Assembly (NCBI GenBank): GCA_000403215.2
Contig: KE159533.1
Coordinates: 115,984-169,919, forward strand
From: Lachnospiraceae bacterium A4
Lineage (GTDB): Bacteria > Bacillota > Clostridia > Lachnospirales > Lachnospiraceae
DNA: 53,936 bases
Reading direction: 5' to 3'
The stretch's first letter is position 1. Each line of letters opens with the position of its first letter. A program made the position numbers and the translations under genes. Below, in pieces: positions 31,135-53,936 of this stretch. The notes under the pieces are model-generated. The model did no database searches. It was not told the DNA's origin and saw only the letters and a program-made list of their open reading frames with translations.

Positions 31135-33309
31135 ATGGATGTGATTACACAGACAAACAGGACGATCCTGTTTACTGAGATCAACCCTGAATGCCTGAAT
31201 TTACTGACCCTGATTGGCGATGTGCGGGGAAAGACAAGCCTGGATGACGACAAGATCAAGGAGATCAATAAGGAGCTGGCGGTGTCAAGCTTTCCTGAGT
31301 TTTTGGAAAAGTTCAGCCCGGTGGTATATTCCTGGTGTGATGCGTCTACTGGGAAAATCCAGTACAGCACCGTAAGGCCCGAGCATATTCCGCAAAACTG
31401 TATTACAGAGATTCCCTTAAATGAGATGAATGACCTGTTAAATATGCTGATAACGCTTCTGGATGCAAAGGATGCACAGGGCGTGGCAAATGTGGATTTT
31501 CAGTTTGGAAAGATTTTAGAGATGATCTCGCCCAAAAAGATTATGGAGGATATCCGGCAGGTCCGCAGGGAAATCCAGTATACCTATGGGAAATATATGG
31601 AGTTAGATGACGGCGATCCCAAGCGGCTTGATCTGGGGGATACCTTAAACTACCAGTTTGAGCAGGCAAGCCAGAACTATAACAACGTTCTTGCGATGCT
31701 GCCGTTAGCGATAGAGGATATCAAGACCCGTCTGCTTTTAGGAGACGGCGAGTCCAGACAGGGCGGACCCGATTTTAAGGCAGGGCTTTTGAGCATGGGG
31801 GAGGACGGGGAATTAAAAATCCTCGAAATGAAACAGGAAGAGAGCACGCAGCTTGCGGTGGTAGATGATGAGGTAAACCTGAGCCTTATGGATGCATTTC
31901 GGGAGGATTATGATGCATTAAACGAAAATCCCTCCGGCTATGTAAGGGATCTGGTTGTCAGAACCTTCTGTCCTTTAAGCTCTACCATGGAGAGCAATGT
32001 TAACCGTGAGCTGGAAGTGGGCAATTACAACACCTATCTTGAGTTTTACAAACAGAGCAAAAATGACTTTGTCAAGGTAGTAAAGCCGTTAATTGAGAAA
32101 ATTCTTGGCGTAAAAACCTTTTTTGACCAGTACAGGGTAAAAGAGAAGGGAATGCAGCCGAAACTACTGATTACAAATATTCCGCTTGAAATGATGGTGA
32201 AATCCAGCAATCTGCCAAGACTGATCACGTACCTGAATACGACGAATGATAAAAATGAATTTGACAACACCATCTGGTTTGGCATTGTGCCGGATGTGGA
32301 ATTAAACCAGACAGCCGGCGGAAAACTGCAACGGGTACGTTTTGCAGGAAACAAGCGTGAGGAGAAGCAGGGGACAAATTCTATGGAGAGCCTTGCGGCA
32401 CTGATGAACGCGATAGAACCGTATAAAATATCTACATTTTTCAGTTTCTGTACCAGTGAGGAGACAACGTTTAATTATATTTCAACAGAGGGGATTCAGA
32501 TCTTCAAGGATAAATGCACACCGCTCATGAAAAAGACTTACAGCGAGTTTGTCATCCCCTGTATCCCGAATGCCACGATTATTCCAAAGGATAAGTCCGG
32601 TCTTGTCCTTGATAAAAAAATGGTGATGGATGAGGAAGGAAATGTTGCCCTTTCTGCGGAAAAGGACGATGTGATGAAGATGTGGCTTGAGGGCATTTAT
32701 GTCAGTGCTGCCTATGAGGCTGCGGGAATCGTGGCGGCATGGCAGTGCCCTGAATATTTAAAACAGCGGTTTAAAGACACAAGCATGGAATATCCTGGTG
32801 TGCGGTTTGATATTGAGGCGGACGACAATGCGCTTCTTGCTACCACCAGCATGACAAAGGAGATTTCAGGATTCACAAACGCCATCAAGAATTCTATCAA
32901 CCATACAGGTTTTGGGTTTGTATTCTCTTCTGATAATGCGCAGTACAAAGGGCAGGAGATCAAGAATATAACAGTCTATAAGGCACGAAATTTATTGAGC
33001 AAAGGAAATGAATTTGAGCCGATTTATAAGACGCTTGTGGTGACATATATTGAAAGGATGCTGCGTTTTTACAGCGCTGATTTCAAACAGGACAAGATTG
33101 AAAAATTCTTCAGCAACAACCCCAACAGCCAGAAGAGCCGGTGGGATGCCAACAGACAGTATGTCAATTCCATTCTGCAGGATGGTGATGAGCTGGAGTG
33201 CAGCATCGATGAAAAATATGGTGTCTGTGATGTTCTGGTTACGTTTGCCAACACAACCAGAAACTTAAAAGTCCAGCTTGAGAGAAAAGCCAGAAATGAA
33301 TATGTTTAA
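31135..33309 (+). CDS. Contractile sheath-like protein (TssC/VipB or phage-sheath type)
   Basis: A 724-residue protein from ATG 31135, chosen because AAGGAG ends seven bases before; ATG 31129 is too close to it. It is soluble, with no signal peptide. The C-terminal part (DGDELECSIDEKYGVCDVLVTFANTTRNLKVQLE) has the alternating strand pattern with which sheath proteins end, and the gene directly precedes two tube genes, as sheath genes do in type VI, phage-tail and extracellular contractile clusters. Type VI sheaths are made of two proteins (about 170 and 490 residues) that sum to a similar size; no separate TssB is present here, so this may be a single-chain sheath. The assignment rests on size, order and end pattern, not on a decisive motif. 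Confidence 0.6.
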   Translation: MDVITQTNRTILFTEINPECLNLLTLIGDVRGKTSLDDDKIKEINKELAVSSFPEFLEKFSPVVYSWCDASTGKIQYSTVRPEHIPQNCITEIPLNEMNDLLNMLITLLDAKDAQGVANVDFQFGKILEMISPKKIMEDIRQVRREIQYTYGKYMELDDGDPKRLDLGDTLNYQFEQASQNYNNVLAMLPLAIEDIKTRLLLGDGESRQGGPDFKAGLLSMGEDGELKILEMKQEESTQLAVVDDEVNLSLMDAFREDYDALNENPSGYVRDLVVRTFCPLSSTMESNVNRELEVGNYNTYLEFYKQSKNDFVKVVKPLIEKILGVKTFFDQYRVKEKGMQPKLLITNIPLEMMVKSSNLPRLITYLNTTNDKNEFDNTIWFGIVPDVELNQTAGGKLQRVRFAGNKREEKQGTNSMESLAALMNAIEPYKISTFFSFCTSEETTFNYISTEGIQIFKDKCTPLMKKTYSEFVIPCIPNATIIPKDKSGLVLDKKMVMDEEGNVALSAEKDDVMKMWLEGIYVSAAYEAAGIVAAWQCPEYLKQRFKDTSMEYPGVRFDIEADDNALLATTSMTKEISGFTNAIKNSINHTGFGFVFSSDNAQYKGQEIKNITVYKARNLLSKGNEFEPIYKTLVVTYIERMLRFYSADFKQDKIEKFFSNNPNSQKSRWDANRQYVNSILQDGDELECSIDEKYGVCDVLVTFANTTRNLKVQLERKARNEYV

Positions 33310-33380
33310 ATACCTTAACAGGGTATGAAATAATAACAGCAGCCTGACCGGCTGCAGAGCAGATAACAAGGAGGAAAACT

Positions 33381-33809
33381 ATGGGATTACGATTAAAAAT
33401 TGAAGGCAGCGAATCAATTGATTTGAAAGAAACCAGCATCACAAATGTGAAATTCGGGGCAGATATCCCCCATGATTCCAACGCCAGATCAACAGATTTA
33501 GGTTCTACAATACTAATCGAAGGGAAAATTCTGGCTCCTGTGAACGGAGAACCGGCGGATGACACCTCAAAAATAGCAAAATGGGCGCTGGTTCCGGCAG
33601 AAAATTCAGACTGCTACAGGAATGTGGAGATCAAAGTCGTAAATGCTTCGCAGATTGTGCGCCAGATTAATGTTTCGAACGCTTTTGTAGTGGATTATGA
33701 GGAAGATTTTACGGATGATACGGGTGCAGGCGTGTTCAAACTTTTAATCAAACAGAAGAAAGATAAGATGGCAAATCTGAAATTTGAAGGCGGATTCAGC
33801 GGAGAGTAA
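33381..33809 (+). CDS. Hcp/tail-tube-like protein 1
   Basis: A 142-residue beta-rich protein with AAGGAGGAAAAC before the ATG. Features are SITNVKFGADIP near the start, the segment RSTDLGSTILIEGKI, then WALVPAENSDCYRNVEIK and NAFVVDYEEDF, and a KQKKDKM end. These repeat in the next gene at roughly 60 percent identity by eye. Length, strand pattern and place after the sheath gene fit the Hcp/phage-tube fold, which forms hexameric rings inside the sheath. Databases often call such Firmicutes proteins membrane-associated protease; I see no protease motif or membrane segment. Two small hairpins (33310-33326, 33339-33355) lie in its 5' leader. Confidence 0.65.
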   Translation: MGLRLKIEGSESIDLKETSITNVKFGADIPHDSNARSTDLGSTILIEGKILAPVNGEPADDTSKIAKWALVPAENSDCYRNVEIKVVNASQIVRQINVSNAFVVDYEEDFTDDTGAGVFKLLIKQKKDKMANLKFEGGFSGE

Positions 33810-33854
33810 TAAATATAAGAATAAAAATGCGTTGAGAGATGAAAGGAGTTTATT

Positions 33855-34280
33855 ATGGGATTTACATTAAAGGTGGAAGGAAATTCCACAATTGATTTGG
33901 GAAAAGACAGCATTACAGGCGTCAAAGTCCGCACAGACATTCCGCTGGACAGCAATGCACGATCTACAGATCTGGGAAGCACGATAACAATTACAGGAAA
34001 AATTCTGACGGCAGTGGACGGAGATCCGTTTGACAGCACCAAACAGCTTGGGCTGTGGGCACTGGTTCCGGCGGAAAATGCTGACTGCTATCGCAAAGTG
34101 GAAATCGAAGTGATTGCTTCTTCACAGATGGTCCGCAAATATACCTTCCCGAATGCCTTTGTAGTAGACTACAAAGAAGATTATGGTGATCTGGAAGGTG
34201 TCGGCACCTTTGTGCTGATCATGAAACAGAAAAAGGATAAGATGGCGCAGATATCAGTAGACGGCGGATACAGCATTTAG
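33855..34280 (+). CDS. Hcp/tail-tube-like protein 2
   Basis: A 141-residue paralogue of the preceding protein, with AAAGGAG before ATG 33855. The shared blocks (RSTDLGSTI, GKIL, WALVPAEN, DCYR, NAFVVDY, KQKKDKM) leave no doubt about a tandem duplication. Differences cluster near residues 60-70 and at the C-terminus (ISVDGGYSI). Either two tube species build one tube, or one serves as tail-tube initiator, or as effector carrier. A strong hairpin follows after six bases, separating the structural genes from the rest of the operon and perhaps keeping their level above that of the downstream genes. Confidence 0.65.
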   Translation: MGFTLKVEGNSTIDLGKDSITGVKVRTDIPLDSNARSTDLGSTITITGKILTAVDGDPFDSTKQLGLWALVPAENADCYRKVEIEVIASSQMVRKYTFPNAFVVDYKEDYGDLEGVGTFVLIMKQKKDKMAQISVDGGYSI

Positions 34281-34286
34281 TGATAC

Positions 34287-34315
34287 AAGGGCTGCCTGCT
34301 TAGCAGGCAGCCCTT
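34287..34315 (+). terminator. Hairpin after the tube genes (partial terminator)
   Basis: A perfect 13-base stem AAGGGCTGCCTGC/GCAGGCAGCCCTT with a three-base loop, followed only by TTTGC. The short T run suggests partial termination or 3'-end protection rather than a full stop. Confidence 0.65.
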
Positions 34316-34349
34316 TGCATACACAGACCCTGAAAGGGGATATTGGCAG

Positions 34350-34796
34350 ATGAAAGATTATTACAAAATCCTGGGTATAGAAAAACAGGCAACGGAGGAA
34401 CAGATCAAAAAGGCATACAGAAAGCTCGCAAAAAAGTATCATCCGGATGTGGTAAAGGACGATCCGGCAAAGCAGGAACGCATGTATGAAATACAGGAGG
34501 CGTATGAATGCCTGGGAAATGAACAGCGCCGCAGAAAGTATGATTCAGACTGCGCCGGCGTGCCACACAAAGGTGCAGGTGTCAGACCTGAAAGGGACAG
34601 GAAGGGAAATCCTGCGCCGTCTGGACCCAAAATGCCGGATTTAAGCCCGTTTGAGCGCTTCTTTGGTTTTACGCCGGGCAAAGGCATGGAAACGTACCGG
34701 GATCAAAGGGCAGAAAAACCGCAGGGACCGGTTCCTACAGACGATCTGTTTGCTGCCTTTTTTGGGAACATGGGGCAGGGAGGGAACAGGAAATAA
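34350..34796 (+). CDS. DnaJ-like co-chaperone with short linker
   Basis: A 148-residue protein with an N-terminal J domain: YYKILGI, helix two with KKAYRKLAKKYHPD, the HPD motif at 31-33, and YECLGNEQRRRKYD at the end of the domain. The rest is a Gly/Pro-rich linker (PAPSGPKMPDLSPF, TPGKGMETY) without the zinc-finger and peptide-binding parts of DnaJ. J-domains stimulate Hsp70 ATPases, and an Hsp70/actin-fold ATPase gene lies four kilobases downstream in the same operon, so they are probably partners. AAAGGGGA precedes ATG 34350. Confidence 0.85.
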   Translation: MKDYYKILGIEKQATEEQIKKAYRKLAKKYHPDVVKDDPAKQERMYEIQEAYECLGNEQRRRKYDSDCAGVPHKGAGVRPERDRKGNPAPSGPKMPDLSPFERFFGFTPGKGMETYRDQRAEKPQGPVPTDDLFAAFFGNMGQGGNRK

Positions 34797-34799
34797 GGC

Positions 34800-35360
34800 A
34801 TGGAACATGGAAAAAAGAAAAAAATGCGCACTGTTATTTTCGATATCTTAATCCTGCTGTGCGGTGCAGTCCTTGCAGTAGAAATATTCCTGTATACAGG
34901 CACACAGCACTGGATGCTGCTTCCTCTGGCTGCTGTAGTGCTCTGTATGGCGCTTACGCTGGCAGGACTGGTTTCTTCCTTTCGGTCAGGGGACATAGAA
35001 AAAACGGAATGTTTTGAGGGAGAGGGCCCCAGACAGCTGATTCTTTTGAATGAGCAGGGAAAACCCGTCAAAGCATGGAGCCTCGAAGGAAAAACTTCTC
35101 TGATTATAGGGAAATCAGGAAAGAATCAGGAGCTGGATGTGGACCTTCTGGATTGTGAGTACAGCAGTTTTGTTGATTTCCAGCATGCGGCGCTGAATTT
35201 CTGTATGGACCAGTGGTACATAGAAGATCTGGAATCCCATAACGGGGTAAAAATCAAAAAAGTGGAGGACGGAGAGTGCTACAGGGTGCTCCACCGCCCG
35301 TGCAGGGTTATGGCTGGCGATATCCTGTATATTGCAAACACAACGCTGCTTCTGACATAA
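34800..35360 (+). CDS. Membrane FHA-domain protein
   Basis: A 186-residue protein. A basic N-terminus (HGKKKKMR) is followed by two membrane segments (about 11-30 and 37-58: IFDILILLCGAVLAVEIF, WMLLPLAAVVLCMAL). The C-terminal 100 residues make a cytoplasmic FHA domain: IIGKSGKNQELDVDL, then SSFVDFQHAAL and ESHNGVKI, matching the G-x-x, S-x-x-H and S-x-N-G positions of the fold. FHA domains bind phosphothreonine; in Proteobacterial type VI systems an FHA protein (Fha1/TagH) is a post-translational switch. It begins three bases after dnaJ-like. Confidence 0.75.
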   Translation: MEHGKKKKMRTVIFDILILLCGAVLAVEIFLYTGTQHWMLLPLAAVVLCMALTLAGLVSSFRSGDIEKTECFEGEGPRQLILLNEQGKPVKAWSLEGKTSLIIGKSGKNQELDVDLLDCEYSSFVDFQHAALNFCMDQWYIEDLESHNGVKIKKVEDGECYRVLHRPCRVMAGDILYIANTTLLLT

Positions 35361-35383
35361 AAGGAGATAGGAGACAAAAGAAG

Positions 35384-35881
35384 ATGAGTTTAGCAAGATG
35401 CCCGAACGGACATGTATATAATTCCAGACGTTATGGCAAGGTCTGCCCTTACTGCAGCATGAAGCTTGAAGAAGAAGAGCCTGCCAGAAAAGCAGCTGGA
35501 TTTGAACCGCCCTTGGAAATTCTGGATGAAGCGGTGAGGCCCGTATGCGGCTGGATTGTCTGCATTGAGGGCGCGCGGGTAGGAGCGGACTACAAGGTCC
35601 ACGAAGGAAAAAACTTTGTGGGAAGAGGCGATGAGATGGACATACAGATCCTTGGCGACAATGAGATCAACCGGAAGAACCATGCCATTATCGTCTATGA
35701 CCAGAAGAAATTAAACACCATGATTCTTCCGGGAGATTCCGCAGGCATTGCATATCTGAATGAGGAGCCGGTTTATGTGCCCAGAGAACTAAAGCCTTAT
35801 GACATCATCAGCATGGGGCAGAGCCGCTTTCTGTTCGTGCCTCTGTGCGGGATGAATTTCTCGTGGGCGGATGTGACATGA
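35384..35881 (+). CDS. Zinc-ribbon plus FHA-domain protein
   Basis: A 165-residue cytoplasmic protein. Residues 6-25 (CPNGHVYNSRRYGKVCPYC) hold C6, H10, C21 and C24 and probably bind zinc. The FHA part follows with FVGRGDEMDIQIL, INRKNHAII (the S of the S-x-x-H motif is Asn) and ISMGQSRFLFVPL. AGGAGATAGGAG precedes ATG 35384, and its stop overlaps the next start (ATGA). With the loss of the phosphate-contact Ser, phosphothreonine binding could be weakened. It is the second FHA protein of the cluster and, unlike the first, has no membrane anchor. Confidence 0.75.
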   Translation: MSLARCPNGHVYNSRRYGKVCPYCSMKLEEEEPARKAAGFEPPLEILDEAVRPVCGWIVCIEGARVGADYKVHEGKNFVGRGDEMDIQILGDNEINRKNHAIIVYDQKKLNTMILPGDSAGIAYLNEEPVYVPRELKPYDIISMGQSRFLFVPLCGMNFSWADVT

Positions 35882-36720: not shown

Positions 36721-38514
36721 ATGAGAAGGAGCAATTCTGAATTTCAGACACTCCACATTTCTGAGGAAGGACAGAAGCTGTCCAACAGGGATTACTTTGG
36801 GTATGTGGAGATGGATGATTTTGCCTGTTACGTGCTGGCGGACAGTCTGGATGCAGAACCGTCTGTAAACAGCGCCAGACTGGCAGTAGAGAGTATTCTG
36901 CGCAGTTTTACGGAAGCCCCGGCAATGCGGAAAAGGACTCTCAGAAAGTATATCATCAGGGCGCACAAAGAACTTCTTTCAGAGCGGGGAGGAATGCATT
37001 TAAAAGCCAGCGTCGTCGTTGCCGTGACAGATTACAGGAAACTCTGCTGTTTTCATGCAGGAAACAGCCGTCTGTACTGGATTCGGAACGCGCGCATTCT
37101 GGAACGGACGCTGGACCACTCACTGACCCAGAACCTTCTTGAACAGGAGAAAATCCCGCTGGATCAGGCTGCGGCGCATGAGGAGCGCAACAACCTGTAT
37201 TCTTTTCTGGGCGGCCGGAAACGCCCGCAGATTACGGCCTCCCGTAAAAGAAAGCTTGAAAACGGCGACATGTTCGTTCTGATGACAAGGGGCGTCTGGG
37301 AACAGTGCCCGGAGCAGGAATTTCTACAGATTGCCAATGATGCAAAAGAACCAAAGGATATTCTGGAGCAGACAGAGGACTGTGTCTTAAAAAAACAGGA
37401 AGAGCACAGCATTGACAATTACTCGCTGGCAGTCACTTTTGTCAACAAAGTATACCAGTCTCCCAAAAAACCGGTATCTGTCAAAAAAGTTCTGATGACA
37501 GTGCTTCCAATCCTGCTTGCAGTGTCCGTCACCATAACAATGCTCTGCCTGCGGCACAGAAACAACCGCCAGAAAACGCAGGAGATGTTCCGGTATATGG
37601 ACAGCGGGGAAGCCTACATTGGATTAAACAATTACCAGAAAGCCGCAGAGGAATATAAGGAAGCGGGAACGCTGGCAAAAAAATTAAAACGCACGAAGCA
37701 GCAGGATGAGGCCGGCCAGTATGCGAAGCTCGCAGAGCAGGTCATTCTGGCAGACGAGGCGCTTTTAGCAGGGGAGTACCAGAAGGCACAGGAGCTTTAC
37801 TCAGCTGCGCGGGAGATGTCCATACAGACTGGCAATGCAGGACTTTCTTACATCGAGAGCCAGCTGGACCGCACCCTTGGCTATGTCCATGTTTTTGACC
37901 TGATAGCACAGGGGGAGCACAAGGAAGAATATGGCAACTTAGAAGGCGCCGTCGCACTGTACAAAGAGGCGAAAGACCAGTCGGCAGCCCTGTATTACAA
38001 AGAAGGGAAGGAAGAGGCGCTCAGGCTCCAGATGGCGGCGGAGGAAGCCATGGAACAGCAGAAAATGGAGGAGGAAGCGCGCCTTCAGGAACAGATCAAT
38101 GAGGAAGTGGCAAGCCTTGCCGTGGAGAACGAGCAGAAGGCCAGTGACCAGCAGAGTGCAGCAGATATGGAAAATCAGGGCAACGCCCTTTTGGCAGACA
38201 AGATGTATGAGGAAGCCATCACCTTTTACCAGACGGCGCAGTCGCTGTACAAGAGCCTTGGCATGGAGGACCTCGCAGAAAGAATCGGGCAGAAAATCAC
38301 TGCCGCACAGGCAGGCATGGAAGCGGACGAAGAGTATGCTGCAAGAAAAGAGTCCGAGGAAAAGGCCGAAAAGAGAGAGGCGGCAAGAGAAGCCATCCGC
38401 CAGAAAGAGGAGATGGAGGAGGCCGTCATGCAGGCGGCCAAAGAAGCTGCCAAAGAGGCGGTAGAGGAAGCGATGGAGACAGAAACACAGACGGAAACAC
38501 AGACACAGCAGTAA
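36721..38514 (+). CDS. Divergent PP2C-like domain, membrane helix, TPR and coiled coil
   Basis: A 597-residue protein that starts directly at the stop of the preceding gene. Residues 1-245 read as a PP2C-like domain with NRDYFGY, LADSLDAE (DG replaced by D41-S42) and MTRGVWEQ (SDG replaced, Arg190), ending in DNYSLAVTF. So it is probably inactive or atypical. A membrane helix follows (VLMTVLPILLAVSVTITMLCL, about 256-276). The exported or periplasm-side-equivalent remainder holds TPR-like repeats (IGLNNYQKAAEEYKEAG, LLAGEYQKAQELYSAA, LLADKMYEEAITFYQTA) and then a long, Glu- and Lys-rich coiled coil ending in TETQTETQTQQ. It may tether the machine to the membrane by its TPR region. Confidence 0.7.
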   Translation: MRRSNSEFQTLHISEEGQKLSNRDYFGYVEMDDFACYVLADSLDAEPSVNSARLAVESILRSFTEAPAMRKRTLRKYIIRAHKELLSERGGMHLKASVVVAVTDYRKLCCFHAGNSRLYWIRNARILERTLDHSLTQNLLEQEKIPLDQAAAHEERNNLYSFLGGRKRPQITASRKRKLENGDMFVLMTRGVWEQCPEQEFLQIANDAKEPKDILEQTEDCVLKKQEEHSIDNYSLAVTFVNKVYQSPKKPVSVKKVLMTVLPILLAVSVTITMLCLRHRNNRQKTQEMFRYMDSGEAYIGLNNYQKAAEEYKEAGTLAKKLKRTKQQDEAGQYAKLAEQVILADEALLAGEYQKAQELYSAAREMSIQTGNAGLSYIESQLDRTLGYVHVFDLIAQGEHKEEYGNLEGAVALYKEAKDQSAALYYKEGKEEALRLQMAAEEAMEQQKMEEEARLQEQINEEVASLAVENEQKASDQQSAADMENQGNALLADKMYEEAITFYQTAQSLYKSLGMEDLAERIGQKITAAQAGMEADEEYAARKESEEKAEKREAAREAIRQKEEMEEAVMQAAKEAAKEAVEEAMETETQTETQTQQ

Positions 38515-38541
38515 GAAATTTCCAAAAAGATGAGGGCAGAC

Positions 38542-41013: not shown

Positions 41014-41021
41014 GGAGAAGA

Positions 41022-43800: not shown

Positions 43801-43854
43801 GCATGTAAAGGAAGCTATTCATGAACAGTTTCTACAAGAAAGGAGACGTCATTT

Positions 43855-44481
43855 ATGGAGATAGACCGTTCCATTGCATTGTTCCAGCAGGAACAGTGGG
43901 CGAGGGAAGAGGAAGAAAAAAACAGAAGCTTCTTAGAGCAGTATGACCCGAAAAACCATATCAAATACACGCTCGAAGAGCTGATTGAGGGCATACATAA
44001 AAAGAAGCAGTATCTGTATACATTAAAGCTTGAGTTTGAGGAGAGGAAGCTGTTAAGCGGGCGTCTTGCCATACCATTTATCAGGGATTTTTTTGATGTG
44101 GTTGACGATGAGCCTGATACGGCGCTTCTTGCAAGCAACAGCCGCCATGTCACCATGACCTTTTCAGACACGCCGGGCCGGAAGGCGGTGCACAGCACAG
44201 AGGAATGGATCGAGGGGATGAAGGGCAGCATGAAAGCTATGAATCTGCATATGAGCGTGGAGCAGACAAAGGTCCTTGGGAACATGGAATACCTGTGCTG
44301 CACAATGCCCACCGCAAAGGGAAAGATCTACAACGTCGTATTCTACATGCAGAAGGATGACAGGCTGTATGCAGGCACGCTCAACTGCCCGGAAAAGGAC
44401 AAGGAGGGCATGGGGCTTATGCTGGAGGCCTGCGCCCACGTGATTGAGGAGATGAACCGCCAGGGAGGAGATGTTTCATGA
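43855..44481 (+). CDS. DcrB/DUF1795-like protein (Eag-type chaperone candidate)
   Basis: A 208-residue protein with AAAGGAG before ATG 43855. The first 70 residues form a charged helix (QWAREEEEKNRSFLE, HKKKQYLYTL). The rest resembles the DcrB/DUF1795 fold: IPFIRDFF start, NSRHVTMTF, EEWIEGMKGSMKAM helix, EYLCCTM and IYNVVFYMQKDD strands, and the last helix with EACAHVIEEM. In type VI systems Eag proteins of this fold shield the hydrophobic segments of Rhs and prePAAR effectors before loading. The VgrG-Rhs protein downstream has just such a hydrophobic region, which supports the idea. Its stop overlaps the first VgrG start by ATGA. Confidence 0.5.
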   Translation: MEIDRSIALFQQEQWAREEEEKNRSFLEQYDPKNHIKYTLEELIEGIHKKKQYLYTLKLEFEERKLLSGRLAIPFIRDFFDVVDDEPDTALLASNSRHVTMTFSDTPGRKAVHSTEEWIEGMKGSMKAMNLHMSVEQTKVLGNMEYLCCTMPTAKGKIYNVVFYMQKDDRLYAGTLNCPEKDKEGMGLMLEACAHVIEEMNRQGGDVS

Positions 44482-45887: not shown

Positions 45888-45901
45888 CGGAGGTGTGTGG
45901 A

Positions 45902-47302
45902 ATGTACAGCTTACATGACGTGAAAATCACAGGAGTTGCTCTTGACAGGATCCTTTTCTGTGAGATTGAATCCCATACCGGGGAGCACAGCACACTGATG
46001 CTTGGCGGCTATGTTGACAATGCGGAGGAATTTTTGTTCTGCGTGCCAGACTGCCAGGACATCGAAGTTTCCATACAGGATAAGGAGGGCACGAAAATCC
46101 TATTTTCCGGCATTGTGTCCAACATCCGGATCACAGATACCGGACAGATGAAAACCGTGTGGATAGAAGGAAAAAGCAGAAGCTGGCTGATGGACCGTAC
46201 GAAGCGTTCCCGGTCGTTTCAGGACGCACAGACCACATATCAGGCGCTTGTAGAGGAAATCTTAAAGGATTACGAAGGAAGCAGCCTGATCTATGCGGGG
46301 GAGAGCCTGCAGACAGGAGCGCTCATCATCCAGTATGAGGAGACGGACTGGGCGTTCTTAAAAAGAGTTCTTTCCAAAACAGGGCTTGTGCTGACACCGG
46401 ACAGCCGCGCACCCGGCATCAGCCTCTATGCAGGCGTGCCGGCGTTTCCAGAATCCACGCTTATCTACAGCGTACTGGAAATGAACAAGGACATGCGCTC
46501 CTATTACCGTCTGAAAGCCAATCAGCGGATGGTGCATCCGGCGGATTTCACCCAGTATGTGATTGCTTCCGAGCAGCTTATGGGGATTTTTGAGACGGCG
46601 CTCGTACAGGGACAGCCCCTTGCAGCATATGCATACAGGTATTCCTTTGATGCCCAGGAACTGACAGGCACCTACTGGATGCAGAGCCAAAAAGGGCTGT
46701 CCGTGCAGGCGTCCTATCCTATGCACCTGATCGGTGCGGCACTGATGGCAAAGGTGGTGGAGGTAAAAAAGAACCTGATACGGGCGGCGATGGAGATTGA
46801 CGGGACGCATACCGAACGGGCGGTCCACTGGTTCCCGTACTCCACTCTGTCAGCGTCACCTGACGGGAGCGGATGGTACTGCATGCCGGAAATCGGGGAT
46901 GATGTACGCATCTATTTTCCCTCCAAAGTGGAGGAGGAGGCGGTTGCGCTCAGTGCGGTGAGCGGCTATGAAGCGCCGCAGGGAGGAAGCGACCGGATGC
47001 AGGATCCAGACAGCAGGTATTTAAGGACAAGGTTTGGACAGGAGCTTGCGCTCAATCCCAATGAAGCCAGCCTCTCCTGCGGCGGAATGTCCGGCATCCG
47101 CATCCTGTCAGACGGGAGCTTAAACATTTATGCAAAGGAGACGGTCTGTGTGCAGGCATCGGAGAAAATAACCCTCCATGCGGAGGAAAATCTGACCATT
47201 CATGTAAAAGAGCAGTTCCAGATGCAGAGCATGCAGGGCGGACAGCTTACAGCCATGGAAGGGAAGATCTTTATCAGGGGTACCGAGGTCAAGCTGGATT
47301 AG
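45902..47302 (+). CDS. VgrG-like spike protein 2
   Basis: A 466-residue paralogue. ATG 45902 has GGAGG eight bases upstream and is preferred to an in-frame GTG at 45893. It shows the same order: YEETDWAFLKRVL in the gp27-like part, SPDGSGWYCMPEIGDDVRIYFP in the OB-fold, and a C-terminal beta-helix (LNIYAKETVCVQASEKITL, NLTIHVKEQFQM). No effector domain. Compared with protein 1, the N-terminal third is quite different, so the two may form separate trimers or a mixed spike. A pentapeptide-repeat gene follows 16 bases later. Confidence 0.8.
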   Translation: MYSLHDVKITGVALDRILFCEIESHTGEHSTLMLGGYVDNAEEFLFCVPDCQDIEVSIQDKEGTKILFSGIVSNIRITDTGQMKTVWIEGKSRSWLMDRTKRSRSFQDAQTTYQALVEEILKDYEGSSLIYAGESLQTGALIIQYEETDWAFLKRVLSKTGLVLTPDSRAPGISLYAGVPAFPESTLIYSVLEMNKDMRSYYRLKANQRMVHPADFTQYVIASEQLMGIFETALVQGQPLAAYAYRYSFDAQELTGTYWMQSQKGLSVQASYPMHLIGAALMAKVVEVKKNLIRAAMEIDGTHTERAVHWFPYSTLSASPDGSGWYCMPEIGDDVRIYFPSKVEEEAVALSAVSGYEAPQGGSDRMQDPDSRYLRTRFGQELALNPNEASLSCGGMSGIRILSDGSLNIYAKETVCVQASEKITLHAEENLTIHVKEQFQMQSMQGGQLTAMEGKIFIRGTEVKLD

Positions 47303-47318
47303 GGGGGAGGAAAAACAA

Positions 47319-48290
47319 ATGGACAGAGAAACAGCCCTGCAGGATTTTCAAAAAAAGGCTGCCATAAAAATAGCGGAATTTCGAAATGGCATCACAGCAT
47401 ATGTCCTAGAGCGGGCAGAGGCGCTTGAAGAGCTGGTAAGGACAGCGGCGGAGCGCCTTGGGGAACAGATGGAAAAACAGGGAAAAGAGTCGGTAAGCTT
47501 TCTGTACTTCTCTATTTTAAAGACCGATTTCATCGGCGGCAGGCACCGTATCATGCTCCACGCGCTGGACATGCAGTGGTATCTCGATGAGGCACCGGCG
47601 GAAGTCTATGTGGATGCAGGTGATCTGTTTGCGCCCCTCATGGAATTATGGGACGCACTTACAGAGGCCGGCGGGGGATACGGGGGCGCCGTAAACCGCT
47701 ATGATATAACGCATCTGATCTTTGACCAGCTTCCGGTTTATGACACTGCTGTCAGTTATGTCCTGCGCTGGCGCCTTCGGGACTGGGAGAAGAAGAGCAT
47801 TTTTGAAAGCGTCCCCCGCACGCCGTACTGGCTTGTAAAGTGGGGACAGTACCGCGACCAGACAGAGACGCTCCTCCAGACGGACAGAACAAAGAAAGAA
47901 GCGTCTGAATGGACCGAGGCGCTTGCAAAGGCAAGGCATAAGCCGGACAGGATGGTGTTCAGTTACTGGTATCAGGGAACATTTGAGGGCGGAAGCCCTA
48001 AGGAAATGGACATGCGTTTTATCACCTTTGAGGAATGTGAGATAAAAAACATGGATTTTAAAGACTGCAACCTGGAAGGGAGCCGTTTTGTAAAGTGCAC
48101 ATTTTCAGACTGTACGTTTCCCGGCTGTAACCTGTGGGGTGCAGATTTCAGGGGATGCCGCTTTGAGCGCACCTCCTTTGAAGGGGCGGAGCTTTCGGCG
48201 GCGGTATTTCCAGCTGAGAGTGTTCCGTTTCTAAATATCAGTGCAGAACAGCTTCAGGTGATCGGTTTAGACAGGGAGGAAGAAGCATGA
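47319..48290 (+). CDS. Pentapeptide-repeat protein of the spike region
   Basis: A 323-residue protein with GGGGGGAGG before ATG 47319. The first 70 residues are helical, the middle domain (about 75-220) is of unknown fold with many Trp and Tyr, and residues about 228-298 are pentapeptide repeats of the A/C-(D/N)-(L/F) type: MDFKDCNLEGSRF, CTFPGCNLWGADF, RGCRFERTSF. Repeats of this kind form a right-handed beta-helix. Related proteins accompany Rhs and VgrG genes (DUF2169 plus pentapeptide, as adaptors for effector loading); whether the middle domain is DUF2169-like I cannot tell. Overlaps the next gene by four bases. Confidence 0.65.
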   Translation: MDRETALQDFQKKAAIKIAEFRNGITAYVLERAEALEELVRTAAERLGEQMEKQGKESVSFLYFSILKTDFIGGRHRIMLHALDMQWYLDEAPAEVYVDAGDLFAPLMELWDALTEAGGGYGGAVNRYDITHLIFDQLPVYDTAVSYVLRWRLRDWEKKSIFESVPRTPYWLVKWGQYRDQTETLLQTDRTKKEASEWTEALAKARHKPDRMVFSYWYQGTFEGGSPKEMDMRFITFEECEIKNMDFKDCNLEGSRFVKCTFSDCTFPGCNLWGADFRGCRFERTSFEGAELSAAVFPAESVPFLNISAEQLQVIGLDREEEA

Positions 48291-48823
48291 GGTATTTTTT
48301 CATTACGCAGGATGTAAGCCTGCCCTGCGCCATCTCGTACAGGGATTTTGACATCACAGGCGGAAGCCACCTGTTTACCAAGGAGGATGCGGGAAGGCTC
48401 AACGATACGGTCTCGCTATACCTTTCAGGGAGCGGGAAGGAAGCGGCGTGGGATTTTTTACAGCGCCCCGTCACCATGTTTTCACAGCGGTTTGAGGACA
48501 TCCTGGAGGCGTATGAACCAGGGGTTCTCTTTAAGGACGTCGTTTTGATCCATAAGGAGAATGCGCTGCAGTACCGGTATGTGCATCCTTTGATGGACCA
48601 GCTTGATGCCGCCGCAGACCAGACGGAGTACTATGCAAACGGGATGGTAAAACGCCTTGTTTTATCACAGAAAAAGATTGGAAGGCACCATCTGTTTGTA
48701 CTGGCGGGAAAGCACAGAAAAGATCCTGTGGTAAGCCTTGCACTGGCGGAGAGCCTTCTTCGGAGGAAGCCTGCGGGCATGTGTTTTGAGGAAGTGGAGG
48801 TGGAAGAGCCATGGGAGAAATGA
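48287..48823 (+). CDS. Small cluster protein, unknown (178 residues)
   Basis: Starts in ATGA overlap with the pentapeptide gene. It is a soluble alpha/beta protein with LFKDVVLIHKENALQYRYVH and then LVLSQKKIGRHHLFVLAGK and SLALAESLLRRK. It vaguely recalls the immunity-type proteins found near polymorphic toxins (such as DUF1629), but immunity genes usually follow the toxin's 3' end, which lies outside this window. Its place between the spike adaptor and the PAAR-like gene rather suggests a structural or loading role. Overlaps the next gene by 13 bases. Confidence 0.55.
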   Translation: MRYFFITQDVSLPCAISYRDFDITGGSHLFTKEDAGRLNDTVSLYLSGSGKEAAWDFLQRPVTMFSQRFEDILEAYEPGVLFKDVVLIHKENALQYRYVHPLMDQLDAAADQTEYYANGMVKRLVLSQKKIGRHHLFVLAGKHRKDPVVSLALAESLLRRKPAGMCFEEVEVEEPWEK

Positions 48824-49641
48824 GTCTGTCGGGATTAGAGAAGATGCAGGGAGAGGCGAACAAAAAATTTATAGAATCCTATGATGCCGCACAGAAAGCC
48901 AGTGAGAAAGCTGCCGCAGCAGAGGAGGCTTTTTATAAGGCGGCGCAGGACTATACTTTCGGGGACATGAGCGACGAGAGCTTTCAGAAAAAGGAAGCGG
49001 CACAGAAAGCGATGGAAGAGGCAAAAGCAGAAGCGGAAAGAGCGCAGGAGGCCATGGAGAAAGCCATGAAGGATGCATCTGACGCAGAGAAAGCCGTGAA
49101 CGATAAGAAGGACGAGCTGCGACGAGAGCGTGACAACGACACGACCTATGTGGTGCACTGTGCGCGGATTGAGTGCACCAAGGGCATGCGGGAGAGCTAT
49201 CTTGTGCTGGGCCCTACGCACGGGGTAAAGACGCGGCAGATTCCGCAGATGACGATAAAGGACATTCTGCCAGAAGTGAACGTCATTAATTTCGGCGGCT
49301 GCTTCAGCATGGAAAACCCGTCGGTGAAAGCCGCCGCGGAAGCCGCTGTAATGGCAGCGCAGAAAACCATTGAGGACAAGCACAATCAAAAGGGCTGCAT
49401 CGGTCGCTTTTTTGACAACGTGGTGGACTGGTTTGTCGGAGACCATGAGATGAATGTGGATGAGAGCCTGATGCAGAAATGCGTCGGAGAATGCCTTGCA
49501 AATTTCGCAGGGAACCCCAAATGGGAGAAAGGCCATGAGAAAGTAACCATCAACGGAGATCCCGTGCTTCTGCGCAGGTGCAGCCTTACATGCAATTACG
49601 GCGGATGCATTACGATTCTGGTATCGGGACAGCCAGAGTAG
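48811..49641 (+). CDS. DUF4280 (PAAR-like) tip protein with coiled-coil start
   Basis: A 276-residue protein. Residues about 10-110 are a charged coiled coil, rich in Ala, Glu and Lys (EKAAAAEEAFYKAAQ, EEAKAEAERAQEAMEKAMKD). From about 112 the DUF4280 pattern begins: HCARIECTKG, LGPTHGVK, NVINFGGCFSMENP, and at the end VTINGDPVLLRRCSLTCNYGGCITIL. This family is a PAAR-like cone that caps VgrG spikes and is the usual form in Firmicutes and Bacteroidetes. Several Cys and one His could bind the tip metal. GGAGGTGGAAGAGCC precedes ATG 48811. The VgrG-Rhs gene follows 63 bases later. Confidence 0.75.
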   Translation: MGEMSLSGLEKMQGEANKKFIESYDAAQKASEKAAAAEEAFYKAAQDYTFGDMSDESFQKKEAAQKAMEEAKAEAERAQEAMEKAMKDASDAEKAVNDKKDELRRERDNDTTYVVHCARIECTKGMRESYLVLGPTHGVKTRQIPQMTIKDILPEVNVINFGGCFSMENPSVKAAAEAAVMAAQKTIEDKHNQKGCIGRFFDNVVDWFVGDHEMNVDESLMQKCVGECLANFAGNPKWEKGHEKVTINGDPVLLRRCSLTCNYGGCITILVSGQPE

Positions 49642-49704: not shown

Positions 49705-52700
49705 ATGGAGATAACCTATCAGGGGCTTAGAATACAGCTCCCTTTTGAGGGCGTCATCGGGATTGAGTCGTTCTCAATGGATGCGTCCTTTAATGAACAT
49801 GTGTCCGTGGAGCTTAGGCTTCTTGTGGAGGAGGAGACGATTGAGCCTGCCATACACGGCATTTCTGACGGGGACGGCATCGAGGTGTATGAGGACGGCA
49901 GGGACGGCATCCTCTTTGCCGGAAAGATCACGGATACATGGATGAAAAAGGAACGCGGTCTGTGCTCTATGAGCCTGAAAGCGCTCTCCTACACGATGGA
50001 ATGGAGCCTTGCGCCGGTAAGCCAGAGCTTTCAGGACCTGGATCTGACTTATGAGCAGGTCTTAAAAAAAGTTCTTTCAGATCAGCCGGGCGCAGAGATC
50101 ATAGACAGCGTGACAAAAGGCGCTGTCATACCGGATTTTCTGATCCAGTATGAGGAGAGCGACTGGACCTTTCTTGCCCGTCTGGCAAGCCACTTTGGCA
50201 CTTTTCTCATACCGGACTGCTGTGCTGCGCACGGGCGTGCCTACTTCGGACTGCCGGACCTTGGCGGGGAGACCGTGCTTTATGGTGAGGAGTACCATGA
50301 GATCAAAGACATGGACCAGCAGTACCGCATCGGGGACGCCATCGGGCTGCTTCCACAGGAGAATATCCGCTGGGAGCTGACGACAGGTAAAAGCCTTATG
50401 CTTGCGCAGGGCGTGCGCTTTCAGGGCATCAGCGCCGTTGTCACCCGGATAAAGTACAGGACCGTGCGGGGAGAGCTGGTGCGCTCTTATGAGCTTTCCC
50501 GCAGAAAGGGCGTATTGTGCCCCCTAAAGAGAAATCCGCACATCTTCGGCATGAGCATTCCCGCGACTGTAAAGGAACGTGCAGGAAACTGTGTGCGTGT
50601 GCATTTCCACATCGACCCGGTGTATGAAAACGCCCCGAATAACAAGTATTTTCCTTATGCCATAGAGAGCAGCTTTATCTACTGCATGCCGGAAGTGGGA
50701 AGCCAGGTGCATATCTATTTTCCCGGCGCAGACGAAAGCGGCGCGGTGGCAGTCCACGCCATCCGCATGACAACAGAGCAGAGCGGCGGCAGTGACAGAG
50801 GCTATGCTCAGATACCGGACAATAAATCCTTTTCCAATGTTAACGGTGCAGAGCTTTTATGTACGCCGGGCGGCATTGACCTCTATTCCGACACGGACAG
50901 GGCGTCCTGCATCATGATGGATACGCAGGGGAATGCCGCTGTCACCGGGCGGGACATTGAATTTCATACCCAGGGGAATCTGTCTATAGGAGAGCCTGAC
51001 AGCGAGGGCGGAGAACCCACAGGACAGGCGGCTTTTGTGTCCGGCTCCATCACCTTCCGAATCGGGGAGGACGGCGCTGAGATCAACCTGACAGAGGAGG
51101 CGCACATCTGCGCGGTCTTTGTCAAGCTGGAAGCGTCAGACCGGACGCCGGCTTCCAACCCTTCCGCAAAAGAGGTGTCTGACCAGGTGACAGCCGGGGA
51201 CAAGGCTGCAAGAGACGAGATCAACAACAATGCATCCGCACAGCTGGTGGAGAAGTATGAAACAGGGCGCAGCCAGATTCTGCACGGGTTTGCCAAGGTC
51301 GCAGCCACTGTCGGCGCAGTGGCGGTTTATTGTACAATTACCGTGGTAACGGGCGGTGTCGGTGCACTTGCCGCGCCAGCGGTGCTTGGTGCAATCGGAG
51401 TCGGTGCGGGCGTGACAGTAGTTGCTGCATCGGACATCGGCGAAGGATTTGACAACGTGAAAAAATCACAGACGGGTGATCTGAACAGAGGGTATAACCT
51501 CATTCGGGAGAAAGTATTTAGAGGAAACCAACTGGCATATGATATTTTCAAGACGACGCTCGACGTTGTATTCGGCATGGTATCCGGGCGTGCACTGAAC
51601 GGACTGCAGGGACTCAAAGGCGTGATAAAGACCGGCATGCAGATGGGCGGCAACGTGGCAACAGGCATTGTGAACAGCCTGATTGACACCGGTTCGATTG
51701 ACCCGCTTGGGATGGCTTTTGACATCGGACTCGGCATGCTTCAGGGCTCGGTCGGAAGCGGTGTGACAAACAGCGTCTTAAAAAAGCTTGGGCTGACACA
51801 GTGCGGCATGCCCAAAAAGATCGTGGAGACCCTTGTGGGCACCAGCGTGGATACCGGGATGGATGCACTTGTGAGTAAGCTGTTCGGGCGGGACTTTGAC
51901 TTCTGGGACAGCCTTGGACGCAACGCGTTTTCAAATGCGCTTGCCGCCTTTATCAGCGACCCTGTCGATGCTGTCACCGGCACATACACCATCAACACAA
52001 CAGACTTTATCCTTGCAAGCCTTCCGGATCCGCTGAAGATAGAGCGCACCTACAGCTCCACCAGCAGAGAGGAATCCTGCCTTGGAAAGGGCTGGGGATT
52101 CAACTACGGCAGCCGCATCTACCGCGACACAAAGGATACAGAACACACCAGAATTCATCTTGAGACCATTACAGGCCATTCCTTATGTTTTGAGAGACAG
52201 GAAGATGCATGGGTAAACCAGACCAGAGGAACCGCACGGTTTCTAATGGAGGTGAAAGAGACTGCGGGCCTGTCAGAAGACGAAACCTTCCTGCTGTCGG
52301 ATGCCATGGACCACACGCTGTGCGTCTATGACAGACAGGGACGGCTGCGGTCTGTGAACTATCCAAACGGGCAGCATCTGTCTTTTGCATACAATGAAAA
52401 CGGACTTGAAAAGATCACAACGCCGCTTGGAAATGTGCTGGAAGTGCAGTGCAAAGACGAACGCATTTTACAGATTACTGACGAGATCGGACGCAGGACA
52501 CAGTACCGCTATGAGGGCGATTATCTGGTAGACGTGGTGCACACCGATGAGGGCATCACCCATTATGAATATGACGAAAACGGCCACATCACGGCAGTCA
52601 CCGACCAGAACGGCAGCCGCTACCTGGAAAATGAATATGACCCGAAAGGCAGAATCACAAAGCAGCGTTTCCCGGAAGGCATCTGCCAGACCTTTACATA

Positions 52701-53936
52701 TGACGATGCGCACAGAAGAAACAGCGTCTATTACAGTGAAACCGGAAAGACGGAGGTTTATGAGTACAGTAAAGAGCTGCTTACAGAGCGCACGATCTTT
52801 GAGGATGGAACAGAAATTTCCTATGAATACTCCGACCAGAATCTCAGGACAAGAGAGACCAGCCGTACCGGGGCAGAAAAGCAGTGGGAATATGACACTT
52901 ACGGGCGTCTGATACGCGAGATAGCGCCGGACGGCTTCACCCTGTGCCATGAATATGACGAAAACCACGACCTGATACGCACATGGGACAGTGAGGGGCG
53001 CGAGGTGCAGAACCACTATGACGCACAACACAACCTTCTCTTTACAAAGACAAAGCTTGAGGAGGGAAGATGGCAGGAGACTTCTTATGAATACGATACC
53101 AGAGGAAGATGCACCACACAGACAGACGCACTTGGCAATACCACCAGATGGGAGTATAATAAAACCAGCGCGCACCCTGTCCGGTTTATCACGCCAAAGG
53201 GAGAGGCGACAGACTACACCTACGACCGCGTAGGACGCAGAATGTCCATTGAAAACACTTACGGCATGGTGGAGCTTAGTTATAACTCCCGCAACTTTGT
53301 CACCAGCCGCACCGACGGGGAGGGCTACACCAGCCACACCATCTATGACCGCATGGGGAACATGAAGGCATACTATCCGCCGATTCAGTGGGAGACACAG
53401 GGAAAAGGATACGAATACAAATATGACTATCTGGAACGCGTCATAGATACCATCACCCCGCTGCGGTCACACGAAAGGGTATTCCGTAACTTTGACGGTG
53501 ACATCACCCGTGAGATCCACCCGGTAAGCTATGCAGAGCAGGGCGAAAACGGAGACGGCACCCGGTATGAGTATGATAAGGATGGAAACTGCATCCGCAT
53601 CCGCTACACAGATGGCGGCACAGAGCGCAGATTCTATGATGCCGACGGAAATCTGACAAAACAGGTGCTGCCGGAAGCGTATGATGCAGGTATTGACGAC
53701 GGTGCAGGATACTGCTATGCTTATGATAGCGTCGGCCGCCTGACACAGATACAGGATCCCGATGGAAACATACTGCATACCTATACCTACAACGGAGCTG
53801 GGCAGACCATCCGGGAGACGGACGGAGAAGGGCAGGAGACGCTGTATGCCTACAATGGAGTGGGACAGCTTACAAAAGCGCAGACCAGCATCCGCAGGGA
53901 AGGAGATACGACATACTACCGTGTTGTCAACTATAC
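49705..53936 (+). CDS. VgrG-Rhs fusion effector (3' end beyond the window)
   Basis: At least 1410 residues, open at the right edge. ATG 49705 follows GGAGGTGG; ATG 49700 stops at once. Layout: gp27-like part with YEESDWTFLARLA (from residue 148), OB-fold with YCMPEVGSQVHIYFPG (about 330-345), beta-helix to about 460, a hydrophobic region around 529-590 (VAATVGAVAVYCTITVV, GALAAPAVLGAIGVGAG), the Rhs entry DPVDAVTGTYTINTTDF from residue 752, then YD-repeats such as YEYDENGHITAVTDQNG and YEYDTYGRLIREIAPDG. In Rhs proteins a shell of such repeats encloses a variable C-terminal toxin, which here is past the edge. The hydrophobic region may help translocation and be bound by the Eag-like protein. 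Spike and effector joined in one chain would be carried at the tip under the PAAR-like cap. Confidence 0.85.
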   Translation, partial: MEITYQGLRIQLPFEGVIGIESFSMDASFNEHVSVELRLLVEEETIEPAIHGISDGDGIEVYEDGRDGILFAGKITDTWMKKERGLCSMSLKALSYTMEWSLAPVSQSFQDLDLTYEQVLKKVLSDQPGAEIIDSVTKGAVIPDFLIQYEESDWTFLARLASHFGTFLIPDCCAAHGRAYFGLPDLGGETVLYGEEYHEIKDMDQQYRIGDAIGLLPQENIRWELTTGKSLMLAQGVRFQGISAVVTRIKYRTVRGELVRSYELSRRKGVLCPLKRNPHIFGMSIPATVKERAGNCVRVHFHIDPVYENAPNNKYFPYAIESSFIYCMPEVGSQVHIYFPGADESGAVAVHAIRMTTEQSGGSDRGYAQIPDNKSFSNVNGAELLCTPGGIDLYSDTDRASCIMMDTQGNAAVTGRDIEFHTQGNLSIGEPDSEGGEPTGQAAFVSGSITFRIGEDGAEINLTEEAHICAVFVKLEASDRTPASNPSAKEVSDQVTAGDKAARDEINNNASAQLVEKYETGRSQILHGFAKVAATVGAVAVYCTITVVTGGVGALAAPAVLGAIGVGAGVTVVAASDIGEGFDNVKKSQTGDLNRGYNLIREKVFRGNQLAYDIFKTTLDVVFGMVSGRALNGLQGLKGVIKTGMQMGGNVATGIVNSLIDTGSIDPLGMAFDIGLGMLQGSVGSGVTNSVLKKLGLTQCGMPKKIVETLVGTSVDTGMDALVSKLFGRDFDFWDSLGRNAFSNALAAFISDPVDAVTGTYTINTTDFILASLPDPLKIERTYSSTSREESCLGKGWGFNYGSRIYRDTKDTEHTRIHLETITGHSLCFERQEDAWVNQTRGTARFLMEVKETAGLSEDETFLLSDAMDHTLCVYDRQGRLRSVNYPNGQHLSFAYNENGLEKITTPLGNVLEVQCKDERILQITDEIGRRTQYRYEGDYLVDVVHTDEGITHYEYDENGHITAVTDQNGSRYLENEYDPKGRITKQRFPEGICQTFTYDDAHRRNSVYYSETGKTEVYEYSKELLTERTIFEDGTEISYEYSDQNLRTRETSRTGAEKQWEYDTYGRLIREIAPDGFTLCHEYDENHDLIRTWDSEGREVQNHYDAQHNLLFTKTKLEEGRWQETSYEYDTRGRCTTQTDALGNTTRWEYNKTSAHPVRFITPKGEATDYTYDRVGRRMSIENTYGMVELSYNSRNFVTSRTDGEGYTSHTIYDRMGNMKAYYPPIQWETQGKGYEYKYDYLERVIDTITPLRSHERVFRNFDGDITREIHPVSYAEQGENGDGTRYEYDKDGNCIRIRYTDGGTERRFYDADGNLTKQVLPEAYDAGIDDGAGYCYAYDSVGRLTQIQDPDGNILHTYTYNGAGQTIRETDGEGQETLYAYNGVGQLTKAQTSIRREGDTTYYRVVNY

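Follow-up and report, generated by a model that had tools for sequence, protein, structure and literature searches.

Can bacteria that mostly have a single membrane fire a contractile injection system (CIS) of the type VI kind? This question is raised by a dense run of plus-strand genes in Lachnospiraceae bacterium A4. Our window, the whole stretch of DNA that we analyzed, covers positions 115,984-169,919 of contig KE159533.1 (53,936 nucleotides; the host genome is 6.96 Mb and 97.65% complete), and the run extends from position 29079 to the window's end at 53936. It encodes a vWA membrane protein, a 726-amino-acid (726-aa) sheath candidate, two Hcp-like proteins, a DnaJ protein, two FHA proteins, two PP2C-like proteins, an Hsp70/actin-fold ATPase, proteins of 433 and 235 aa, two VgrG-like proteins, a DUF4280 (PAAR-like) protein, and a VgrG-headed Rhs protein. 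An earlier note on this DNA had proposed a type VI-like system with a different energy and anchoring module. We arrive at a similar view: with a probability of roughly 70%, the operon encodes a CIS of the type VI kind that is probably fired from inside, across the membrane of its mostly monoderm hosts. The baseplate-like model of the 433-aa protein, the conserved gene order, the link to DUF4280, and two distant loci favor this proposal; the sheath fold is the part of it that did not emerge from our analysis.

A conserved operon under purifying selection

A two-pattern scan of genome contigs from 84,980 species gave 401 stretches that encode relatives of the 726-aa protein, and we kept and examined the best 80. 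Judging by their titles, all 80 are from Bacillota. The hosts include Lachnospiraceae, Clostridium, Paenibacillus, Brevibacillus, Aneurinibacillus, Pelosinus, Propionispira, and others; some of the records are gut isolates or gut metagenomes. Relatives were present in 5 of 196 genomes of the class and 13 of 398 genomes of the phylum (both counts include the host's own genome), and in 11 of 146 genomes of one family.

We counted synteny in the 74 of these 80 loci that have at least 9.5 kb after the gene for the 726-aa protein. Genes for Hcp, both FHA proteins, both PP2C-like proteins, and the Hsp70-like protein were found in all 74, DnaJ in 71, the 433-aa protein in 69, and the 235-aa protein in 66. 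The gene order, which the earlier note had proposed to survey, is nearly constant: 34 loci share the order of the window, 29 have the Hsp70 gene after the 235-aa gene, and there are one or two Hcp genes. The vWA gene was found in 58 of the 74 loci whose upstream sequence covers at least 2.5 kb. The operon in the window had been described as dense, with 4-base overlaps between open reading frames (ORFs). It is dense, and the overlaps begin at 4 bases, but they range up to 86 bases and the gaps up to 71. Also, its true start lies further upstream than had been thought, at the vWA gene, and the Rhs gene extends past the window.

The host genome has a second copy of the operon (C38), with 88-89% DNA identity over window positions 29043-48219, where the second contig ends. 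This divergence shows that it is not a duplicate created by assembly. We compared 12 genes between the two copies by the ratio of nonsynonymous to synonymous substitution rates (dN/dS). The ratio was 0.015 for the sheath candidate, 0.028 and 0.055 for the Hcp-like proteins, 0.058 for the Hsp70-like protein, and 0.066 for the 433-aa protein, with a maximum of 0.198 for a 255-aa protein. The operon's genes are under strong purifying selection. A third, partial copy lies on a 3.6-kb contig (C31) and is 57% identical. We also built a tree of 39 sheath-candidate proteins (from 31 of the 80 loci, the three copies in the host genome, and five others). It mostly follows taxonomy, with the nearest relatives in Lachnospiraceae and the C31 copy separate from the window's copy. 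With two diverged copies, one partial copy, and nine DUF4280 matches, the host has a large arsenal.

More distant loci were found in two genomes (G701 and G575), where the sheath candidate is at 26-28% identity. Both have the order DUF4280-like gene, another gene, sheath candidate, Hcp-like, VgrG-like, 433-aa-like, 235-aa-like, and Hsp70-like gene(s). In G575, the DUF4280-like protein was tested with Pfam, and the gene that follows it is Imm11-like. In the two loci, the profiles from our operon matched the sheath candidate (E = 2e-78 and 1e-69), Hcp (4e-15 and 9e-13), VgrG (2.5e-9 and 1.7e-5), the 235-aa protein (7e-26 and 1e-34), and the Hsp70-like protein (2e-143 and 1e-120). The 433-aa profile matched in G701 alone (8.6e-9); its counterpart in G575 was placed by position and alignment, and these proteins are 15-16% identical. 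The FHA, PP2C, and DnaJ profiles had no match in either locus. Since the distant loci keep the tube, the spike, the 433- and 235-aa proteins, and the Hsp70-like ATPase, these look like an inner core to which a phosphorylation set was added. By eye, several Hsp70-like ORFs stand in a row in G701 (L120:13-12919). G575 has one long frame, which was fetched in two pieces, and a piece of this Hsp70-like protein matches Pfam SrfB (2.2e-7).

The sheath candidate tends to occur with DUF4280. Among 398 Bacillota genomes, the 726-aa protein was found in 13 and DUF4280 in 19; 12 genomes have both, 1 has the 726-aa protein alone, 7 have DUF4280 alone, and 378 have neither (Fisher test, p = 2.3e-17, uncorrected for relatedness and with both counts taken as from the same genomes). 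The sole genome with the 726-aa protein and no DUF4280 match is G701, and it holds a protein whose start resembles, by eye, that of the DUF4280 protein of G575.

Tube, spike, baseplate, and sheath candidates

The earlier note had recognized two Hcp-like ORFs, three VgrG-like parts, a DUF4280 protein, and an Rhs protein, and family matches agree with each of these (Table 1). The two Hcp-like proteins match Pfam's TssD weakly, but 13 of 27 members of the family match TssD at E ≤ 0.01 (best E = 9.9e-5), and no other family was reported for them. This suggests, if weakly, an inner tube protein of the Hcp/gp19 family. Phage_GPD matches three proteins, the third at the N-terminus of the Rhs protein. 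Together with matches to Phage_base_V and DUF4280, this points to a spike of the VgrG/gp27-gp5 kind with a PAAR-type tip.

Five ORFs of the operon have no family assignment from scans with Pfam, NCBIfam, and PHROG: the 726-, 433-, 235-, 255-, and 208-aa proteins. For the 433-aa protein, no family match had suggested a role in a baseplate before we searched with its structure. The AlphaFold2 model is good (pLDDT 82.8, pTM 0.75). Using Foldseek against 350,542 PDB chains, we obtained 323 matches at E ≤ 10, of which two were at E ≤ 0.001. One is 9gtp_2G, the baseplate of the Streptomyces coelicolor CIS (E = 8.2e-5, probability 0.51). The other is 6n38_H (E = 5.3e-4, probability 0.96), from the TssK-TssF-TssG baseplate subcomplex of a type VI secretion system (T6SS); given its length of 532 residues, chain H is probably TssF. 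As modeled, then, the protein could supply the baseplate wedge that is expected of a CIS, albeit with low TM-scores.

The 235-aa protein has no Pfam match, and in both distant loci a gene for a similar protein is the neighbor of the 433-aa-like gene. A match of this family to 5i9g, a pentatricopeptide repeat protein (E = 3.2e-8), had no single stretch that passed, and we took it to be chance. For the 255-aa protein, one of the distant loci encodes a relative (E = 8.8e-25). The 208-aa protein has no Pfam match; a weak relative of 217 aa (E = 2.2e-4) precedes VgrG in another locus (L126). By analogy, the 208-aa protein might be an adaptor that loads effectors, but this is a guess.

The 726-aa protein is the ORF that was previously described, from a later start, as a 724-residue protein. 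Its relatives are 56-86% identical in alignments of 13 and 25 rows. It matches no family from Pfam, NCBIfam, PHROG, or PADLOC above cutoff or below E = 0.05. Matches of 40 residues or less to PDB sequences of parvovirus NS1 (E = 0.001-0.016) and two matches to seed proteins at E = 0.37 were taken as chance. Using HHalign, we compared families from the operon to T6SS families (14 queries, 6 of them reversed controls, against 13 families, or 182 pairs). No pair exceeded a probability of 1.8%, in a comparison that was run without a VgrG control and whose sensitivity is hence uncertain. The best of these pairs was the N-terminal part of the sheath candidate with TssB. In shuffle tests, this pair reached z = 2.5-3.1, with 2/150, 4/300, and 2/300 shuffles scoring as well. 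The VgrG positive control gave z = 5.4 (none of 12 shuffles scored as well), but the control with Hcp failed (z = -0.7), and an unrelated control (the T6SS Hcp against the N-terminus of the sheath candidate, with loose gaps) reached z = 2.8 (0/100 shuffles as good). Because of these two controls, the TssB-like signal is a hint at most. The 726-aa protein is perhaps a one-piece sheath, with TssB and TssC fused in one chain.

Control, anchoring, and chaperone genes

The vWA protein is predicted to have an extracellular vWA and immunoglobulin-like region, a transmembrane (TM) segment, and a cytoplasmic tail of ~130 aa. We called TM-like segments from hydropathy windows in length-filtered family members. 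Among vWA relatives with a single ORF of 600-760 aa, 54/56 have two such segments, which would put the vWA part outside and ~130 residues inside. FHA protein 1 has two TM-like segments in 53/56 relatives, and the PP2C-like proteins 1 and 2 have one each in 70/73 and 70/70. In the window, the vWA gene consists of two ORFs that overlap but lie in different frames (29079-29738 and 29653-31086), a split that could reflect a sequencing error or inactivation. It is a single ORF of 668 aa in the genome's second copy, and another locus (L049) is split similarly.

That FHA and DnaJ genes lie beside the core, as had been noted, is confirmed by Pfam, with both FHA matches over the cutoff. Two proteins do resemble PP2C as described, but all of these matches are below cutoffs. 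PP2C-like protein 2 matches the PADLOC model PDC-M21C (1.7e-15), which PP2C-like protein 1 matches weakly. In the window, the phosphatase motif of PP2C-like protein 2 is a degenerate ADG; [LIV][AST]DG is found in 43/72 relatives. It is possibly a pseudophosphatase with a TPR part beyond the membrane.

The kinase profile found no Ser/Thr kinase in the window. A Ser/Thr kinase adjoins the core in locus L124 (Pfam, 2.4e-36), and one was recognized by eye in two members of a protein cluster (cluster 16) from 13 of the 80 loci. Kinase, FHA, and PP2C genes are also present in a standard T6SS locus (L129). In T6SS, such genes trigger assembly by threonine phosphorylation. AgrB-like, response-regulator-like, and kinase-like clusters lie beside the core in 15, 22, and 16 of the 80 loci. 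In the window, an AgrB-like gene precedes the vWA gene, and directly before it is a 63-aa ORF that we take to be AgrD-like.

The Hsp70 fold of the 827-aa ATPase, which the earlier note had also named, is weakly indicated by family models (NCBIfam's DnaK and, at E = 0.012, Pfam's Actin, which 1/18 relatives match at E ≤ 0.01). It is better indicated by the phosphate motif D[C/L]GGGTTD, which is present in 70/72 relatives.

The Rhs frame is still open where the window stops. Its remainder lies on the following piece of the contig (L001), with a SUKH-type immunity gene after it. That piece starts with 10 N and repeats the window's last ~1.45 kb, which is an unclosed assembly overlap. A payload cassette was also found on a plasmid of Paenibacillus polymyxa (L098), with pentapeptide, VgrG-like, DUF4280, nuclease-annotated, and small proteins. 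Since none of the plasmid records scanned matched the sheath candidate, spike-toxin modules may move apart from the machine. Upstream of the operon, positions 433-26073 encode UvrD-like helicase, PAPS-reductase-like, DNA polymerase III subunit-like, and NlpC/P60 proteins, and are perhaps an integrated element.

Table 1. Genes of the operon and its immediate upstream neighbors (window coordinates).
Feature	Position	Strand	Evidence or remark
AgrD-like 63-aa peptide precursor (presumed)	28266..28457	+	ORF directly before AgrB; likeness by eye
AgrB-like; possible quorum-sensing input, membership in system unsure	28461..29063	+	Pfam AgrB, E = 8.7e-35
vWA membrane protein	29079..31086	+	Pfam VWA, 1.8e-16; two overlapping ORFs
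726-aa sheath candidate; possible fusion of TssB and TssC	31129..33309	+	56-86% identity in alignments of relatives, 26-28% in two distant loci; no known family
Hcp-like tube protein 1	33381..33809	+	Pfam TssD (PF17642), E = 1.9e-4, below curated cutoff
Hcp-like tube protein 2	33855..34280	+	60% identical to Hcp-like 1; TssD E = 0.095 alone
J-domain (DnaJ) protein	34350..34796	+	Pfam DnaJ, 2.4e-24
FHA protein 1, two N-terminal TM-like segments	34800..35360	+	Pfam FHA, 6.2e-6
FHA protein 2, Cys-rich N-terminus, true start probably later	35276..35881	+	Pfam FHA, 9.6e-5, over cutoff
PP2C-like phosphatase 1, N-terminal TM-like segment	35845..36720	+	NCBIfam Stp1/IreP, 1.9e-20, below cutoff
PP2C-like 2: PP2C-like domain, TM, TPR-like C-terminus	36721..38514	+	Pfam TPR 4.2e-4, PP2C 0.019, below cutoff
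Hsp70/actin-fold ATPase, 827 aa	38530..41013	+	NCBIfam DnaK, E = 0.003; phosphate motif
433-aa baseplate wedge candidate	41022..42323	+	AlphaFold2 model and Foldseek
235-aa partner, possible second baseplate protein	42302..43009	+	By position only; no Pfam match
255-aa protein	43033..43800	+	dN/dS 0.198, the highest among 12 genes
208-aa protein preceding VgrG; might be an adaptor for loading effectors (a guess)	43855..44481	+	No Pfam match
VgrG-like spike 1	44478..45887	+	Pfam Phage_GPD, 9.9e-8
VgrG-like spike 2	45893..47302	+	Pfam Phage_GPD, 6.4e-14
Pentapeptide-repeat protein	47319..48290	+	Pfam, 7e-17
Imm11 immunity protein	48287..48823	+	Pfam, 5.9e-8
DUF4280 PAAR-like tip	48811..49641	+	Pfam, 1.6e-21
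VgrG-headed Rhs, continues beyond window	49705..53936	+	Pfam RHS 2.5e-50, DUF6531 1.1e-12, GPD 3.4e-5 (below cutoff)

Relation to known systems and alternative accounts

The operon resembles T6SS (types i-iii) in its Hcp-like tube, VgrG spike, DUF4280 PAAR-like tip, and Rhs effector with immunity genes, in its FHA, PP2C, and Ser/Thr kinase genes (as in L129), and in the structural match to TssK-TssF-TssG. It differs in having a single sheath candidate instead of TssB and TssC, in its Hsp70, DnaJ, and vWA membrane proteins, and in its mostly monoderm Bacillota hosts. As the earlier note had stated, TssJLM and ClpV are not recognizable: with Pfam, we found none of them, and no AAA ATPase, among the scanned operon proteins (the genome beyond the operon was not searched for these). 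For the 16 kb after the window, we read the list of ORFs of at least 100 aa and scanned one ORF for families. TssE (gp25-like) and TssK had no Pfam match in the operon, and profile comparisons were negative. TssB and TssC as separate genes were not encountered either, with TssC (PF05943) sought genome-wide and TssB in the operon. Because separate TssB/C, TssJLM, and ClpV were sought in the operon and not found, we file it as a variant within CIS and not as a member of T6SS.

Like the Streptomyces CIS, the operon has monoderm hosts in most cases, and its baseplate candidate matches 9gtp; it differs from Streptomyces and extracellular CIS (eCIS) in having TM-bearing regulatory and receptor proteins. 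An unknown phage-like translocation system of Gram-positive bacteria has been surmised from DUF4280 genes (PMC5349215, PMC8651086). As in our operon, DUF4280 lies there beside Phage_GPD in Firmicutes without known T6SS or eCIS genes, but the accessible portions of these papers name no machine, whereas the operon offers a candidate for one. We found no description of the operon in the open PMC literature, a coverage that leaves out preprints and most subscription papers.

Our best reading is an injector that resembles T6SS, is probably anchored in the membrane, and has an Hsp70/J-protein module. Hcp-like rings would stack into the tube and the 726-aa protein would form the sheath around it, with the 433-aa (TssF/gp6-like) and perhaps the 235-aa protein as baseplate wedges and the VgrG and DUF4280 proteins as the spike. 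The payload would be the VgrG-headed Rhs protein, the pentapeptide protein, and DUF4280-linked toxins, with Imm11 and SUKH proteins providing immunity. Docking the baseplate and triggering it via threonine phosphorylation would fall to the vWA receptor and to the FHA and PP2C proteins that bear TM segments, with the kinase that lies beside some loci. Contraction would then drive Hcp, VgrG, DUF4280, and toxin outward through the membrane, presumably into a target. The Hsp70-like ATPase and its J-protein may substitute for ClpV, either assembling the sheath or recycling it. We suggest this role because the ATPase is a neighbor in 74/74 loci, the J-protein in 71/74, the phosphate motif is conserved, and no AAA ATPase was recognized in the operon.

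Several observations weigh against this reading. The earlier note had called the 726-aa ORF sheath-like, which our results do not confirm: it has no family match, its TssB-like signal is faint, and AlphaFold2 modeled it poorly (mean pLDDT 52, pTM 0.46). Nor did the profile of the sheath candidate match TssC (HHalign; shuffle z = -0.8 for SHEATH_C). Both Foldseek matches of the 433-aa protein have low TM-scores (0.14 and 0.31) and large root-mean-square deviations (21.6 and 13.0), and its profile did not match TssF, TssG, or TssK (HHalign; shuffle z = -0.1, 0.6, and -1.7). For these reasons, we call it baseplate-like instead of assigning it to a specific subunit. The Hcp-like family had no profile match to three T6SS Hcp proteins. 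With Pfam, no gp25/TssE-, TssG-, or TssK-like protein, tape measure, or TssA equivalent was recognized in the operon. Of the 19 genomes with DUF4280, 7 lack the sheath candidate. The earlier note's idea of a monoderm version holds for most of the hosts, but Pelosinus and Propionispira are diderm Negativicutes, which means that the design is not confined to one kind of envelope. The boldest step is the role of the Hsp70-like ATPase at the sheath, which we propose from gene neighborhood and motifs.

Some of this evidence would also suit a cytoplasmic or extracellular CIS, of the eCIS or Streptomyces type, that is released by lysis instead of being anchored in the membrane, with the kinase, phosphatase, and vWA proteins regulating only expression or lysis. 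The best structural match of the 433-aa protein is to a monoderm system of this type, and the best 80 of the 401 loci are from Bacillota by title. But four of the core families have TM-like segments, and the FHA and PP2C genes next to the core are reminiscent of a T6SS locus (L129). Also, the scanned operon proteins include no Pfam match to an AAA ATPase (Afp15-like), LysM, or tape measure, and nothing beyond a PHROG tape-measure match to the coiled coil of the DUF4280 protein (E = 0.044), which is at chance level. We consider an unanchored system unlikely. Still less probable, in our judgment, is that nothing contracts: some unknown apparatus would carry the VgrG, DUF4280, and Rhs proteins, with the 726-aa protein serving as its scaffold and the Hcp-like proteins as adaptors. 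This would explain why the 726-aa protein has neither a demonstrated sheath fold nor similarity to TssC, and why the Hcp and 433-aa families lack profile matches to their T6SS counterparts. It fits poorly with the baseplate-like model, with the TssD match of the Hcp family, and with the position of the Hcp-like gene, which is present in 74/74 long loci and directly follows the gene for the 726-aa protein in both distant loci.

A remnant prophage or tailocin, as might be suspected from the families that VgrG-like proteins share with phage tails, is scarcely credible given the strong purifying selection, and head or lysis PHROGs appeared only at E ≥ 0.03 (10 operon proteins scanned). We rejected a prophage origin, as the 726-aa protein had no relative among 50,697 phage records, among 72,556 plasmid records, or in a scan of viral contigs (50 pattern stretches). 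The Hcp family had no relative in viral contigs either.

If the type VI-like reading is correct, the operon might define a separate T6SS-like class of mostly single-membrane hosts. In such a class, an Hsp70/J-protein pair would replace the AAA+ disaggregase in recycling the sheath, a one-piece sheath would replace TssB/TssC, and a vWA receptor with FHA, PP2C, and kinase proteins would replace TssJLM as both anchor and trigger, and it would deliver the DUF4280 toxins of Firmicutes. We advance this tentatively, at somewhat less than even odds.

The operon is a concrete candidate for the machine that delivers the DUF4280 toxins of Firmicutes. If it does fire as proposed, then contact-dependent injection extends to monoderm gut bacteria, and if the Hsp70-like ATPase acts as we suggest, a contractile machine would draw its energy from a new source, Hsp70.

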